A stretch of DNA of 43,937 bases from a virus, in the IMG/VR virus record IMGVR_UViG_3300028569_002402, positions 1-43,937 of that record; one strand, given 5' to 3'. Position 1 is the first letter of the stretch; every line of letters starts with the position of its first letter. Position numbers and translations under genes: made by a program. Shown here one piece after another: positions 2,726-23,636 of the stretch. The notes below the pieces were generated by a model. It had not been told where the DNA came from. It did no database searches and saw only the letters and a list, made by a program, of their open reading frames with translations.

Positions 2726-3016
2726 TTAATTTAAAATTGCTAAAATATCTGTTTCTTTTGTAATATAATATTCCTCTCCCTCAACAACAAGTCTTTGACT
2801 TCCCATTTTAGGTATTAATACCTTGCTTCCTATTTTTAATGCACTCTTTACCTCTGTATCTGAGTTATAATTATAGGTTGGACTTGTAGCAACAACTTCA
2901 CCAATTTCTGGCTTTTCTTTACCTAGATCAGGGATAATAATATTACCTGATAGTTGTTCTTCTTCTTCGATTGGTTTTAAAATTGTAAAACCGTTAAGTG
3001 GTGTTATTTTAGACAT
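2726..3016 (-). CDS. groES: GroES co-chaperonin (Hsp10)
   Basis: This 96-residue protein matches the usual length of GroES. It opens with ITPLNGFTILKPIEEEE, the typical first strand, followed by a mobile-loop region (LSGNIIIPDLGKEKPEIGEVVA) and the closing strands GSKVLIPKMGSQRL and EEYYITKETDILAIL. GroES caps the GroEL ring, and the mobile-loop hydrophobic triplet that contacts GroEL is seen as III. It is encoded immediately upstream of groEL, as in bacteria. T4 instead uses a GroES-like cap (gp31) with host GroEL, so carrying both genes is a more self-sufficient arrangement. Confidence 0.95.
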   Translation of the reverse strand: MSKITPLNGFTILKPIEEEEQLSGNIIIPDLGKEKPEIGEVVATSPTYNYNSDTEVKSALKIGSKVLIPKMGSQRLVVEGEEYYITKETDILAILN

Positions 3017-3971: not shown

Positions 3972-4028
3972 TTTTTTGTTGTTTATGCTCCCTAAGGTAG
4001 CGGTTAATAATAATTGTTATTTAATAAT

Positions 4029-4040
4029 GGAGACCTGTCA
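4029..4040. repeat. 12-bp inverted repeat, copy upstream of hsp20
   Basis: The sequence is ggagacctgtca, the exact reverse complement of 3282-3293. It lies 58 bases before the hsp20 start codon. If transcription begins above it, the 5' leader and 3' trailer of the mRNA could pair over 12 bp. Confidence 0.85.
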
Positions 4041-4100
4041 AGTACCTCTTATATAAATATATATTATTTTACAAAACCATTATTTTTTATGTAATTTATT

Positions 4101-14449: not shown

Positions 14450-15154
14450 CTATCCTCGTATAGCTAGTTCTATATTTTTATAAAACTCTGCTCTTGCTGA
14501 ATCTTCTTCTAGGAAACATCCTGTTAGCTTTGCTGTTTGCATTGATGCTCCCTGGTGTTTAACTCCTCTGCATGATACGCATGAATGTGTTGCATTAATA
14601 GCTACTGCTACTCCTAAATTACCTTCACATACCTTATCTACTGCATTGTGAATTGCTACCGTTAATTGTTCTTGTATTTGACCTCTTCTTCCAAACTGTT
14701 CTACAATTCGGTTCAGTTTTGAGAGACCAACTACTTTTCCGCTTTCTGTTGCTATATATGCAATACTCACATACCCTTCAATAGGTTCGTGATGATGACT
14801 ACACATAGATGTTAGTGGAATTCTAGATTCTTGTATTATACCCGAATATCCATCAGAGGGAAAAGATGTAATTCCTGTTAATGGTTCAAATCTTCCTTGC
14901 CATTTTTCTAAGTAAGCTTTAGCTACCCTGCGAGGAGTATCCGATGAATTAGGATCGCTTTCCCAATCACATCCTAATGCTGTAAGGAAATCTCCAAATG
15001 CTCTTGCTGCATCTTCAATAATATAATGCTTTTCAAACTCAGTAAGTTGTGCTTCCGGACCGTCTTCTGCTTGTTTTTTTGCTAGTTGAATAGATATACC
15101 ATTAGCAAATCCTGCTTGAACTATTTCAGTTCCTTCAATAAATTTTTTAGCCAT
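14450..15154 (-). CDS. folE: GTP cyclohydrolase I
   Basis: This 234-residue enzyme converts GTP to 7,8-dihydroneopterin triphosphate, the first step of 7-deazaguanine (and folate) synthesis. Zinc ligands are seen as C118 and H121 in MCSHHHEP and C192 in THSCVSC. The block VVGLSKLNRIVEQFGRRGQI followed by QEQLT is the canonical GLSK-R-QVQE motif, and the C-terminal T-GCF is present. It is separated from queE by three small genes. Together with queD, queE, queC and queF it provides a full preQ1 route, so it most likely feeds DNA modification rather than folate. Confidence 0.95.
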   Translation of the reverse strand: MAKKFIEGTEIVQAGFANGISIQLAKKQAEDGPEAQLTEFEKHYIIEDAARAFGDFLTALGCDWESDPNSSDTPRRVAKAYLEKWQGRFEPLTGITSFPSDGYSGIIQESRIPLTSMCSHHHEPIEGYVSIAYIATESGKVVGLSKLNRIVEQFGRRGQIQEQLTVAIHNAVDKVCEGNLGVAVAINATHSCVSCRGVKHQGASMQTAKLTGCFLEEDSARAEFYKNIELAIRG

Positions 15155-15992: not shown

Positions 15993-16634
15993 TTATACGT
16001 TTAATGTTTTATTTCCTTTTTTACTATTATTAGTTCTTTTTGTCCAAACTAGATTTTCCTTTACTGTAATTTCTTGAGGAGTTTTACCATCTAAAAATGC
16101 CTTACTTCTTGGATAAACATGATCCAATGTAGGGTAATTTTTATGATGACTCTCAAGTTTTAAATTATCCTTAATATATTCACCATCATAATAATCATAT
16201 CCATCCCATTCTGATATGCTTTCTTTTCTAATTTTTCGAGTTAATTCATTACATTTTTTCCAAAATCTCTTCCAATCTTTATTTTCTTTAAAATTAAATA
16301 TTCTACCTGTATTTTCCCATGTTTTTTTTCTTTTTTCTATTGATTCTACACTATTAGCCTTAACCCGTCTATTTTCTGATTGAGGTGGTTTAATATTCAT
16401 ACTTTGCCATTTATTATAACATGCTTTACAACAGAAATAATTATTGCGTATTTTATTTTTTCTAACCTTTATAGTACAAGTACAGTATCCACAATTTACA
16501 TCTTTATATCCTAAATCTAATTTACATTTTTCACTACAGAATTTATTTACATGTTGTTTAACTGTTTTGCTAAGAAAATAATTATTGCAATTTGTACAAG
16601 TATATTTAACTTCTTTTTGGTGATATCCTTTCAT
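15993..16634 (-). CDS. HNH homing endonuclease with zinc-finger N-terminus
   Basis: In this 213-residue protein, residues 1-80 hold several CxxC pairs (YTCTNCNNYF, FCSEKC, NCGYCTC, YFCCKAC) likely to bind zinc. A basic linker follows. The C-terminal nuclease reads HHKNYPTLDHVYPRSKAFLD and ENLVWTKRTNNSKKGNK, an HNH core of the R.Pab/HNH_5-like style. It lies just behind queE, is preceded by the AT-rich motif shared by the window's endonuclease genes, and is flanked by a duplicated queE tail. It is a mobile intruder in the modification operon. Confidence 0.87.
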   Translation of the reverse strand: MKGYHQKEVKYTCTNCNNYFLSKTVKQHVNKFCSEKCKLDLGYKDVNCGYCTCTIKVRKNKIRNNYFCCKACYNKWQSMNIKPPQSENRRVKANSVESIEKRKKTWENTGRIFNFKENKDWKRFWKKCNELTRKIRKESISEWDGYDYYDGEYIKDNLKLESHHKNYPTLDHVYPRSKAFLDGKTPQEITVKENLVWTKRTNNSKKGNKTLNV

Positions 16635-16644
16635 AATTTATTTA

Positions 16645-16655
16645 TTATAAATATC
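16645..16655 (-). promoter_or_regulatory. GATATTTATAA motif before HNH gene 15993
   Basis: On the coding strand GATATTTATAATAAAT lies 10 bases before the ATG at 16634 and contains TATAAT, a good -10 box. The same element precedes the other endonuclease genes. Promoter activity is inferred. Confidence 0.5.
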
Positions 16656-16682: not shown

Positions 16683-17510
16683 TTAAACATTAATTACACG
16701 ATCCCAAGCCGATATATGTAAACGAGTCATTCCAATAAATTTATATTTCTTAGCCATCTCTAAACAGAATTGAGTACGTTCGTGGAAATCAGCTTGATCA
16801 TCTAAACCAGGCATACACACTACATTCTTCAATGGAATTTCAAATGGAGTTACGAAATCACGGAATAATTCCTTAACATCATCTTCGGTTGAAATAACGA
16901 ATTTAAACTGATAATTATCGTGTTCCATAATGCGTTTAATAGCATCTGGTTTAATGCGTTGTTTCTCAGTCATACCTGAGTTTGCTAATTTAGGAGAGCA
17001 ATTGATTTGGTGTAATTTTTTGAATAAATAATCTTCAATATAAATTGTACCGTTAGTTTCAATTTCATTATAAGCATTAATAACATCTTGACTAATCCAA
17101 TATTGAAAAAAATTATCAATTGCAACTTGATGACCTTTAATAGTAGGTTCACCTCCGGTCCAAATTAAGTGTATTACTCCGCTTTTAATATCATCATAAA
17201 TACCTTGTTCTTTCCATTGATCGATTAGATATTGGAATTCTTTATCCTCACCTCTCCATAACCATTGAGATGTACTATCGCAAGTCCAAGTTGCTTTACC
17301 TTCTAATTCTAAATCACCTTTAAATATTTCTCCATCCTCTAGTGATTTATCTTTTAATAATTGGTTTCCAAATGCTCTTGAAAAACCGCATGTTAGGTTA
17401 CATAAACCTAAACGAATAAAGTACGATGGTAATCCTGTAGATTTCCCTTCTCCTTGTACTGAATAAAAATCACTACTTATTAATAACTTATCTGGACTGA
17501 TTTTGCTCAT
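16683..17510 (-). CDS. queE: 7-carboxy-7-deazaguanine synthase (radical SAM)
   Basis: This 275-residue enzyme converts 6-carboxytetrahydropterin to CDG. It opens DFYSVQGEGKSTGLPSYFIR, a hallmark of QueE, and carries HLIWTGGEPT (the SAM-binding GGE block) near residue 115. It has a Ser-Pro-Lys segment INCSPKLAN and a late HISAWD. The iron-sulfur cysteines appear as C37-x3-C41 followed only after 35 residues by C77-D-S, rather than the usual CX3CX2C. The start lies inside the last 23 bases of the preceding small ORF, so translation is probably coupled. It belongs to the FolE-QueD-QueE-QueC route. Confidence 0.94.
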   Translation of the reverse strand: MSKISPDKLLISSDFYSVQGEGKSTGLPSYFIRLGLCNLTCGFSRAFGNQLLKDKSLEDGEIFKGDLELEGKATWTCDSTSQWLWRGEDKEFQYLIDQWKEQGIYDDIKSGVIHLIWTGGEPTIKGHQVAIDNFFQYWISQDVINAYNEIETNGTIYIEDYLFKKLHQINCSPKLANSGMTEKQRIKPDAIKRIMEHDNYQFKFVISTEDDVKELFRDFVTPFEIPLKNVVCMPGLDDQADFHERTQFCLEMAKKYKFIGMTRLHISAWDRVINV

Positions 17511-18129: not shown

Positions 18130-18361
18130 AATGATTTAATTTTTTTGTTAATTCATTAATTCTTATCTGCCAATACCACTTACCTAACCAACTAGATGCT
18201 TGTTTTTGTTTTTCAGTAAATTCTTTTATTTTTTTATTAATTGGTCTATTAATTTTTTCCAAGATATCTATATCATAATAACTATTGTTTTCTAGATTTG
18301 CGATTGCTGGATCTTCGGGTTTATTTTTGTCTGCTATTCTTTTATAAAAATTATCCTTCAT
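18122..18361 (-). CDS. hypothetical protein
   Basis: ATG at 18361 gives 79 residues and overlaps the end of queD by 11 bases. An ATG seven codons earlier is possible. The protein is hydrophilic and mostly helical, with KKIKEFTEKQKQASSWLGKW followed by a Trp/Arg-rich stretch. No domain recognised. Confidence 0.55.
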   Translation of the reverse strand: MKDNFYKRIADKNKPEDPAIANLENNSYYDIDILEKINRPINKKIKEFTEKQKQASSWLGKWYWQIRINELTKKLNHYV

Positions 18362-18820
18362 ATATAGCAGTATTTTTAGCATGTTCCATAAATTCTACTC
18401 TTGTAATTTTAACTCTACCTTCTGTTTCTTCCTGAATGAATGTATTTAATTTTTCATAGATATATTTTGCAAATTGTTCAGCTCCTGTAGCTGGGATTAT
18501 TCTTAATTGAATGATACCATCAAAATACATTTGTTTAAAACTTTCTAAATAAGGATCATCTTCTGCAATAATTGTTGTATGATCAAACATATGATCCATC
18601 CATACTTTAGGATTCATACCACCAATAGTTCCATTAGCACGTTTCATTCCACCAAAATCCCAAACCCAATTACGTTCGTCTAATTCACCCTCAAACCATA
18701 CTCTAAAAGATATTCCATATCCATGAAGATATTTACTTAACAATGGGTTCCCGATGCACGCCACTGTCGAAAGCATGCCGAGAACCCATCAAATAATTTT
18801 GTTGATTTAAATTTTTCCAT
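18351..18820 (-). CDS. queD: 6-carboxy-5,6,7,8-tetrahydropterin synthase, interrupted by a frameshift
   Basis: QueD turns dihydroneopterin triphosphate into 6-carboxytetrahydropterin. Two frames are needed for the whole protein. The first, from ATG at 18820, reads MEKFKSTKLFDGFSACFRQW and then RASGTHC, ending at TAA (18737-18739). The second resumes KYLHGYGISFRVWFEGELDE and continues through NWVWDFGGMK, WMDHMFDH and a final EFMEHAKNT to 18351. C of THC is the catalytic Cys position and HGY stands where HGH binds zinc. Five extra bases (TAAGT) separate the Cys codon from the Lys codon. The only open start for the second frame is ATG at 18776. This may be a real inactivating mutation, recoding, or an assembly error. 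Confidence 0.85.
18740..18787 (-). other. hairpin inside queD just before the frameshift
   Basis: On the coding strand the arm ATGGGTTCTCGGCATGC is followed after about 15 bases by GCATCGGGAACCCAT. The ends pair as ATGGGTTC/GAACCCAT (8 bp), then a wobble and two further pairs, a two-base bulge, and four more pairs. The stem ends two bases before the TGT-TAA where the frame is lost. Confidence 0.65.
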
Positions 18821-21637: not shown

Positions 21638-22063
21638 TTATTTATTATCATTTTTATTTATTTTTTCTAAATAATGTAATTCTCTATGACAATTAGCACA
21701 TAATCTAATACATTTACTAATTTCTTCTTTTGTTGATTTCCAACTAGAATAATGTCCTTGACTGCCAATTGTATATTTTTTTGTTTCTGTACTAATGTGA
21801 TGAAAATCTATTACATAAAATCTAGAATCACCACATCTTTCACATCCTTTTGCTTTTTCCTGATTAGCCCATTCTCTTACTTTTTCTACTTTCTTATTTC
21901 TAGATTGTAACCATTTTTCTTTTCCTTCTTCTTTTCTCCATCTTTTAGTTCCTAATTTATTGCATTCTTTACAGTAAGAAGTTAATATTTTTTTATTCTT
22001 ATCTCTCCAGTAAAAATTAGAAGGATCTTTTTCAATCTTGCATTTAGTACATTTATGTTTCAT
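21638..22063 (-). CDS. HNH endonuclease
   Basis: This 141-residue protein has an N-terminal zinc knuckle (KCTKCKIEKDPSNFYWRDK and YCKEC), a basic linker, a central CxxC (KGCERCGDSRF), DFHH (the first HNH histidine pair) and a closing CANCHRELH. This is the usual layout of short phage HNH nucleases. It sits between queC and dpdA and splits what would otherwise be a continuous operon. The shared AT-rich motif lies upstream. It is probably a free-standing homing enzyme. Confidence 0.86.
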   Translation of the reverse strand: MKHKCTKCKIEKDPSNFYWRDKNKKILTSYCKECNKLGTKRWRKEEGKEKWLQSRNKKVEKVREWANQEKAKGCERCGDSRFYVIDFHHISTETKKYTIGSQGHYSSWKSTKEEISKCIRLCANCHRELHYLEKINKNDNK

Positions 22064-22124: not shown

Positions 22125-22967
22125 TTAATTTTCAGATAATACTTTACTAACGTGAGCAATTACTTTATCCCAAGAAGCTATACCATCTTCATCTTCATAA
22201 ATTACAGGGTCAGGACGACCTAAATTAATAAAAGCCTCTACTCGTTCAACACTTGAAGCAGATTTATAATCTGAATTACCTGATGGATATGGTTTATAAC
22301 TAGTATTAGTTCTTCTATATACTTCATTAAAATCTAAACCTAACTCTTCACACAATTTTTCTCCATCTTTCAAAATATCAAGTTTTACACCTTTAAGATA
22401 TGGAGTAAAGTATTGTACCTTTTCAGATCCCCAATTTCCTATCCTAAAAGCATAATCATCAGCATCACGGAATTCTTGTCTACAATCAGGATATACTCCA
22501 AAGTCTCCAGCATGTATACCTAAAGCTATATCACAATTTTCTCCGGTTCTTTGAGCAACTGATAATGCTACTGCTTGAGTAATAGAAGCGAATATTTTGT
22601 TACGATTAGGGACTACAGTTGCTTTTTGATTATCTTCGGCATAGTGTCCTTCTGGTATATCTGCACCTCTTGTTACTAATGCTGAATCTAATAGATCGGA
22701 TAATCCATTTAATTGGATTTGACGATAATTGATTTTTGAGTATGGAATATCTTCAGCTAATATACCATATTCAAAATCCAAGTCATAAGCACAATTTATA
22801 TAATCTACTAATAATTGAGCACGTTCAAGTTCTACTTTGTGTTTTTGACCGTAATCAAATGAAATTGCCGTTACTGTATCGTATTCCTTTAAACAGCGTA
22901 ATAGTAATGTACTTGAATCCATCCCGCCGCTGGCACTAACAACTACATGTCGTTTTATTTTTTTCAT
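22125..22967 (-). CDS. queC: 7-cyano-7-deazaguanine (preQ0) synthase
   Basis: This 280-residue enzyme turns CDG to preQ0 with ATP and ammonia. The PP-loop SGGMDSS is at 13-19, followed by AISFDYGQKHKVELERA, which is diagnostic of QueC. VPNRNKIFASITQAVAL and ALGIHAGDFGVYPDCR are also typical. The C-terminal region where QueC normally binds zinc through CG-C-C reads TSYKPYPSGNSDYKSASSVE with no cysteine at all. Otherwise the protein is full length and looks active. It is the first modification enzyme of the run, placed between two HNH genes. Confidence 0.94.
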   Translation of the reverse strand: MKKIKRHVVVSASGGMDSSTLLLRCLKEYDTVTAISFDYGQKHKVELERAQLLVDYINCAYDLDFEYGILAEDIPYSKINYRQIQLNGLSDLLDSALVTRGADIPEGHYAEDNQKATVVPNRNKIFASITQAVALSVAQRTGENCDIALGIHAGDFGVYPDCRQEFRDADDYAFRIGNWGSEKVQYFTPYLKGVKLDILKDGEKLCEELGLDFNEVYRRTNTSYKPYPSGNSDYKSASSVERVEAFINLGRPDPVIYEDEDGIASWDKVIAHVSKVLSEN

Positions 22968-23027: not shown

Positions 23028-23549
23028 TTATGAATTTTGTTTGAATTTTCCAATAAATATTCCGTGAATTTCTTCATGACATGAAACACACACTGTTAGT
23101 CCATTTTCAATATCAAATGCTTTTGAAAAATCTTTACTAAATGATATAATATGATGTGCTTGTAAATACCCTTGTATACCACATTTCTGGCATGTATATT
23201 TATCTCTTTCAAAAACTTGTTTTCTCCACTCAATTAATCTTGGATCGTTTCTTCGTTTTTGATTTGTATTAGTAATTCCACCTTTCCAATTATTATTTAC
23301 TGGACCTGTTTGATTTTTTCCATAAGCAGGATTATCTTTTCCTTTTTTAAACCTTGTTTTTATATTTGCCTCGGAATTTTTCATAGCTTTTGAGAGATTA
23401 TTTTTATGCTCTTCAGATTTAAATTTACCTATTAATGATTTTTTTTGTATCTCTGATCCGCATTTTCTACTACATGTTCTATAATTTTCGGAAGGCCAGG
23501 TTTCAAATTCTTTATTACATATTTCACAATTTTTTATAAGTTTAGGCAT
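23028..23549 (-). CDS. HNH endonuclease with NUMOD3-like segment
   Basis: ATG at 23549 gives 173 residues (MPKLIKNCEICNKEF). A GTG at 23582 is in frame but would place the shared AT-rich motif inside the gene. Layout: zinc finger (CEICNKEF and CSRKCG), NUMOD3-like DNA-binding motif around KKGKDNPAYGKNQTG, then KGGIT and the HNH nuclease FERDKYTCQKCGIQGY, QAHHIISF, CVSCHEEIH. It lies between an unknown gene and queC. A mobile homing enzyme is the simplest reading. Confidence 0.87.
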   Translation of the reverse strand: MPKLIKNCEICNKEFETWPSENYRTCSRKCGSEIQKKSLIGKFKSEEHKNNLSKAMKNSEANIKTRFKKGKDNPAYGKNQTGPVNNNWKGGITNTNQKRRNDPRLIEWRKQVFERDKYTCQKCGIQGYLQAHHIISFSKDFSKAFDIENGLTVCVSCHEEIHGIFIGKFKQNS

Positions 23550-23558
23550 ATTATTTTT

Positions 23559-23570
23559 AATATAAATATG
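23559..23570 (-). promoter_or_regulatory. CATATTTATATT motif before HNH gene 23028
   Basis: The coding strand reads GCATATTTATATTAAAAATA directly before ATG 23549. It matches the endonuclease-gene element with TATATT in place of TATAAT, and it decides in favour of the downstream ATG. Confidence 0.45.
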
Positions 23571-23636
23571 CAATTCCTCCACTTAATGTAAAAAATATTT
23601 TATTTTTACCATATATTATTATGAATAGTAAAAACT

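Follow-up and report, generated by a model that had tools for sequence, protein, structure and literature searches.

To our knowledge, gene 60 of bacteriophage T4 stood almost alone for decades as a case of translational bypassing in a phage. In that gene, a GGA codon is followed by the stop codon UAG, a 5′ stem folds behind the ribosome and directs its sliding, and translation resumes at a matched codon (PMC11194080); the insert is thought to have given protection from the nuclease by which the neighbouring homing endonuclease spread (PMC5009743). Counterparts that bypass shorter distances have long been presumed, and in the mitochondria of Magnusiomyces capitatus, extra blocks known as byps are skipped in translation, with landing codons that are sometimes imperfect and for which two-out-of-three pairing has been proposed (PMC5009743).

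Here we describe a locus in a window of viral DNA (the whole stretch analysed, 43,937 nucleotides, IMG/VR record IMGVR_UViG_3300028569_002402) in which a queD gene on the minus strand (18820-18351) is interrupted at its catalytic cysteine codon. As in T4 gene 60 and mobA, a single gene is divided into two out-of-frame parts across a gap, both parts being conserved, with a stop codon directly after the take-off codon and an RNA stem on the 5′ side. The features are as follows.

18740..18820, minus strand: 5′ reading frame of queD, 27 codons, the last of which is the catalytic Cys codon TGT (18742-18740).
18740..18790, minus strand: 51-base hairpin segment, GATGGG...CCCATTGT, with its 5′ arm at 18790-18779 and its 3′ arm at about 18753-18742, analysed for fold, covariation and mosaicism.
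18740..18742, minus strand: proposed take-off codon TGT (Cys), putative in function, with a stop directly after it and its position kept in ten of ten cases.
18735..18739, minus strand: five extra bases TAAGT, comprising an in-frame stop TAA (18739-18737) and GT, without counterpart in 93 intact homologs.
18735..18737, minus strand: proposed landing codon AGT, putative in function, an NGY triplet that shares the last base of TAA.
18351..18734, minus strand: 3′ reading frame of queD, KYLHGYG..., 127 codons and a stop, carrying the PTPS/QueD domain.

The gene starts with an ATG at 18820, and its first frame reads MEKFKSTKLFDGFSACFRQWRASGTHC before the TAA. The initial annotation had described a first frame ending GTHC-stop and a second resuming KYLHGYG, a difference of five bases (TAAGT) from relatives, and a strong hairpin immediately 5′ of the break, and our analysis bears out this description: in the 93 intact homologs the cysteine adjoins K/R/Q-F/Y-L-HGY, and the stem-loop at 18790-18742 has a minimum free energy (MFE) as RNA of -28.4 kcal/mol (z -4.75 against dinucleotide shuffles and about -4.4 against synonymous recodings). 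The downstream frame matches PF01242 (E 1.8e-13) and phrog_2389, and the gene thus has the domain of the QueD/PTPS family (PF01242); the family's Cys-x3-His-Gly motif has its proper spacing in all 93 intact homologs and is obtained in the broken genes only if the insert is skipped without added residues. A search of the ten records with broken genes found no second intact queD copy in any of them (the two matches in L096 are the two frames of its single broken gene, and L093, which runs off the contig end, gave no match), and a PDB sequence search with an intact homolog returned nothing at 0.001. In the window, queD belongs to a queuosine-type cluster with FolE-like (14453-15154), QueE-like (16686-17510) and QueC (22128-22967) genes. 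The sequence TATTTATAATAAATA lies just 5′ of start codons on the minus strand of the window near 16653 and 32014, is also present in related loci, and looks like a phage promoter.

The same break recurs among relatives. Eighty related loci were gathered with the downstream half of the gene as the sole query, so that the first half was unselected, and in 79 of them the cysteine continues directly into K/R/Q-F/Y-L-HGY; the exception, L028, has a break of identical type with the insert TAGC and a stem that differs by one compensated pair. Pattern scans returned TAGC breaks in seven contigs (L082, which is one contig with L028, and L086, L089, L090, L093, L096 and L099) and seven-base inserts, TGATAGT and TGACCGT, in L107 and L108. 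The broken architecture, a 51-base stem-loop segment that ends in the Cys codon and is followed by a stop within 4, 5 or 7 extra bases, is therefore found in nine contigs other than the window, and a stop codon (TAA, TAG or TGA) stands directly after TGY in all ten broken genes. Two scans that allowed 1-30 extra bases past the Cys codon and did not require a hairpin returned exactly these nine, all hairpin-bearing, and no broken homolog that lacked the hairpin. Altogether, the 104 distinct loci comprise 93 intact genes, ten broken ones, every one with the hairpin, and one that runs off its contig end. In isolated phages of Flavobacterium and Chryseobacterium, the matching region is shorter by about four bases, as would be expected of intact homologs. 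No stop-type pattern was found by a scan of bacterial genome contigs, and among hairpin-plus-stop frame breaks sought elsewhere in the fetched loci there were other matches and no convincing second family.

Because the same break and the same hairpin occur in nine other contigs, chance or assembly error is very unlikely as a general explanation. The initial annotation had left three options unranked, namely a true lesion, an assembly error, and a programmed shift or short bypass aided by the 5′ stem, and had suggested a comparison with related phage contigs; that comparison disfavours a private lesion or an assembly error for the class and favours the third option, which is partly supported by recurrence in ten contigs, the invariable presence of the covarying 5′ stem at the break and purifying selection past it. 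An error confined to the five bases of the window could be suspected from their length as assembled, five rather than four, which is unique among the ten (the other inserts are 4 or 7 bases long). However, the surrounding architecture is that of the nine other contigs, and the window carries the hairpin, whose comparable, same-register equivalent among intact genes occurs only in L058, making such an error scarcely credible.

Across the broken genes, the 54-base region containing the stem has an MFE of -25.4 to -31.1 kcal/mol (mean -28.2, compared with -10.8 in intact genes), and the stems reach z scores of -3.5 to -5.3 against random synonymous recoding. In each broken gene the stem abuts the Cys codon. 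Its pairs covary at positions 8-42 (A-U in five genes, U-A in four), 9-41 (C-G, U-A) and 15-36 (A-U in four, G-C in four); the covariation score was reached by none of 500 shuffles, and shifting the pairing partner by 1-3 columns at least halved it. The queD of L058 (around 2950-3000) is intact and has no insert but forms a stem in the register of the broken genes (ATGGGTT...AACCCAT; MFE -21.7), and it is the only intact gene to combine this register with comparable strength; it is possibly a progenitor or a revertant. A strong stem also forms in the intact queD of L053 (likewise around 2950-3000), though in a different register (MFE -24.6). As for other kinds of element, Rfam gives only a tRNA, in L107, and recognises neither a group I intron nor any other known RNA at the break; readings as an attC site, a transposon end or a terminator were dropped on inspection of the sequence, which has no matching partner site and no T run after the stem.

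The coding properties of the hairpin bear on whether the two frames might be separate genes. Termination followed by re-initiation, for example at an ATG in the hairpin, could yield two polypeptides that assemble into a working enzyme, as might be suggested by the conservation of both parts and by the ATG of GATGGG, which is in frame with the downstream part in nine of the ten cases. However, conservation of the hairpin as protein is seen in frame 0 and not in the overlapping +1 frame, through which re-initiated translation would run; the in-frame start of the window is a different one, and a split gene leaves unexplained both the covariation of the stem and its position against the stop. We therefore regard two separate polypeptides as decidedly improbable.

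Selection on the downstream frame is evident among the broken genes, which retain 57-91% protein identity there and whose silent sites are saturated or nearly so in most pairs. The sisters L089 and L099 (tree support 1.0), both of which bear the cassette, have a downstream dN/dS of 0.058: their 65 base differences produce 12 amino-acid changes, compared with about 44 expected under neutrality (minimum 31 in 2000 simulations), so that protein identity is 91% despite heavy silent divergence. Between their hairpins there are five changes, one that exchanges Tyr and Phe and four that are silent, and four of these five lie in two compensated pairs. The simplest reading of these two sequences is that their ancestor already had the cassette, and if it did, the gene would have been under selection ever since.

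These data also bear on the possibility that the genes are dead, the insert and hairpin being a scar of homing endonuclease activity or recombination and the host supplying QueD. In most lineages the cassette may have been acquired recently, in which case the selection seen downstream could predate it, and L096 has a second frame break in its downstream queD (about 4010-4045, near the T run GATTATTTTTTAAATATCTATTAG), which may reflect either genuine decay or faulty assembly. Against this, the protein identity of L089 and L099 has been kept in two cassette-bearing sisters, their stems differ by paired compensatory changes, and the downstream frames of all broken genes apart from L096 are open to a stop or to the contig end. 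We consider it quite unlikely that these genes are simply dead.

We think it rather probable that the break in phage queD represents a mobile cassette of the homing-endonuclease/bypass type, an analogue of T4 mobA-gene 60, and that ribosomes hop the gap. The cassette would consist of a recoded 51-base stem-loop and a 4-7 base insert opening with a stop codon. The ribosome would stall with peptidyl-tRNA-Cys on UGY and the stop codon in the A site, and the mRNA stem would refold ("zipper") behind it, pushing it forward by 4, 5 or 7 bases, after which the Cys tRNA would land on an NGY triplet and decoding would restart at the K/R codon, giving QueD with normal Cys-x3-His spacing. In the four insert types, the triplet just before resumption is AGC, AGU, AGU or CGU; all of these fit NGY, so that two of the three Cys anticodon positions pair, as with the proposed landing codon AGT of the window. 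Two independent origins could account for all insert types, so that few independent events stand behind the NGY rule. Moving from UGY to NGY over 4, 5 or 7 bases would restore the junction of intact genes and so explain all insert lengths. With an assumed ribosome footprint, the computed gain from refolding upon hopping is -1.5 to -7.1 kcal/mol, compared with a mean near -1 in intact genes.

Some features depart from T4 gene 60 and count against bypassing. The take-off codon UGY and the landing codons AGY/CGY differ at the first base; T4 gene 60 resumes at an identical codon, whereas landing in queD (AGC/AGT/CGT) matches take-off (TGT/TGC) at two of three bases. The nascent peptide, which in T4 gene 60 is stimulatory (KKYK-type), is short in queD (25-27 aa), and no excess 3′ structure was computed that would form a 3′ stem at the landing site. 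Two other differences from T4 gene 60 are that the queD stem abuts the take-off codon and that the gap is 4-7 nt in place of 50 nt.

The position of the stop raises a further alternative. At +1 frameshift sites, the A site typically holds a stop codon and a stimulator lies on the 5′ side (PMC5009743). The broken genes have both, like prfB, in which a sense codon is followed by a stop, and the 4- and 7-nt inserts of nine of the ten genes place the downstream frame at +1. In a prfB-like shift, one base would be skipped after UGY, so that Cys and Lys/Arg would be separated by Ser (with TAGC) or by Asp-Ser/Asp-Arg (with the 7-nt inserts). However, none of the 93 intact homologs has such an addition of one or two residues between the catalytic Cys and the next His, where they would be expected to disturb the active site; tRNA-Cys would re-pair poorly on GUU/GCU, and the 5-nt insert of the window would need +2 or -1, so that the downstream part is not always at +1 and the size of the shift varies (4, 5, 7). 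Also unlike prfB, the 5′ element is a stem rather than a Shine-Dalgarno sequence. We judge a programmed +1 frameshift at the stop to be unlikely.

Two observations go beyond the initial annotation: the cassette moves horizontally, and in three phages it is linked to a gene for an HNH homing endonuclease situated immediately upstream of queD. In the hairpin, the window and its nearest intact relative, L004, share 53% identity, compared with 69-94%, mostly above 83%, in neighbouring blocks; likewise, L107 and the intact L156 share 65% identity in the hairpin versus 83-96% elsewhere. The converse is seen in L082 and L090, which are identical in the hairpin (100%) and 52-77% identical in downstream blocks. 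The broken genes are dispersed over a tree built from the downstream part, on which six changes are needed. Given this mosaicism and scatter, the segment moves between alleles, and DNA around the site has been exchanged as a tract between lineages, as for a homing cassette.

The upstream gene encodes an HNH_3 protein of about 225 codons and lies directly 5′ of queD in L086, L096 and L093; it is absent from all 87 intact loci with enough upstream sequence. A scan of viral contigs for the family found one further close member, in L172 (2438-3172), also directly 5′ of queD and with queD-like promoter-proximal sequence, beside an intact, divergent queD. The N-terminal 85 residues, the catalytic part, are 61-63% identical to an "intron-like DNA endonuclease" of T4-type phages and resemble I-TevIII and other free-standing T4 HNH homing endonucleases; the C-terminal part is not common to them, and the queD-linked gene is free-standing directly before queD. 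Each of the four genes has a promoter-like TATTTATA block with CAYGGATACG before it, a sequence similar to the DNA that encodes His-Gly-Tyr in queD shortly after the break. This operator-like match is short and is significant against shuffles only for L096 (16 bases in common with L004). The operator that I-TevI binds at its promoter is a mimic of the homing site of the enzyme (PMC2988022), which makes it plausible that this queD-like sequence is likewise a target mimic.

The cassette would thus have spread among phages by recombination, with an I-TevIII-like HNH homing endonuclease as driver in some lineages at least; its putative target would probably be the active-site region of queD, and the insert and recoding would protect the carrier's own queD. 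Counting against this link, the endonuclease accompanies only three of the ten broken genes, the window having an AAA_28 gene in its place, and L172 pairs it with an intact queD. GIY-YIG genes are present in four of the ten broken records, not consistently beside queD. The window also has HNH-type nuclease genes (15993-16634, 21638-22063 and 23028-23582) interspersed in its queuosine-type cluster, none of them the gene seen upstream of queD in L086, L096 and L093.

The queD break is real, it recurs, and its best explanation is a variant of the T4 gene 60 kind. The cassette shares with T4 gene 60/mobA an adjacent HNH homing endonuclease gene (here in three of ten cases) and differs in that the gene is queD, the nearest isolates infect Bacteroidota, ten alleles are scattered by recombination, and we infer bypassing from sequence. 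With the byps of M. capitatus it shares short blocks of extra bases, putatively skipped; unlike those, which seem to be context-independent with an unused codon in the A site, it concerns a bacteriophage, a single site in one gene, and a strong covarying 5′ stem. We see an even chance that this is a second natural phage system of homing endonuclease and bypass, with gaps of 4-7 nt, a hop driven by the 5′ stem alone, landing that needs just two base pairs, and a gap length that drifts among alleles because the hop, not the frame, is conserved. If so, queD would provide a shorter-distance bypass with ten natural variants of stem and gap, and comparing these could test what the stem, the gap length and the landing codon each contribute; it would also suggest that homing nucleases have become coupled to bypassed inserts more than once.
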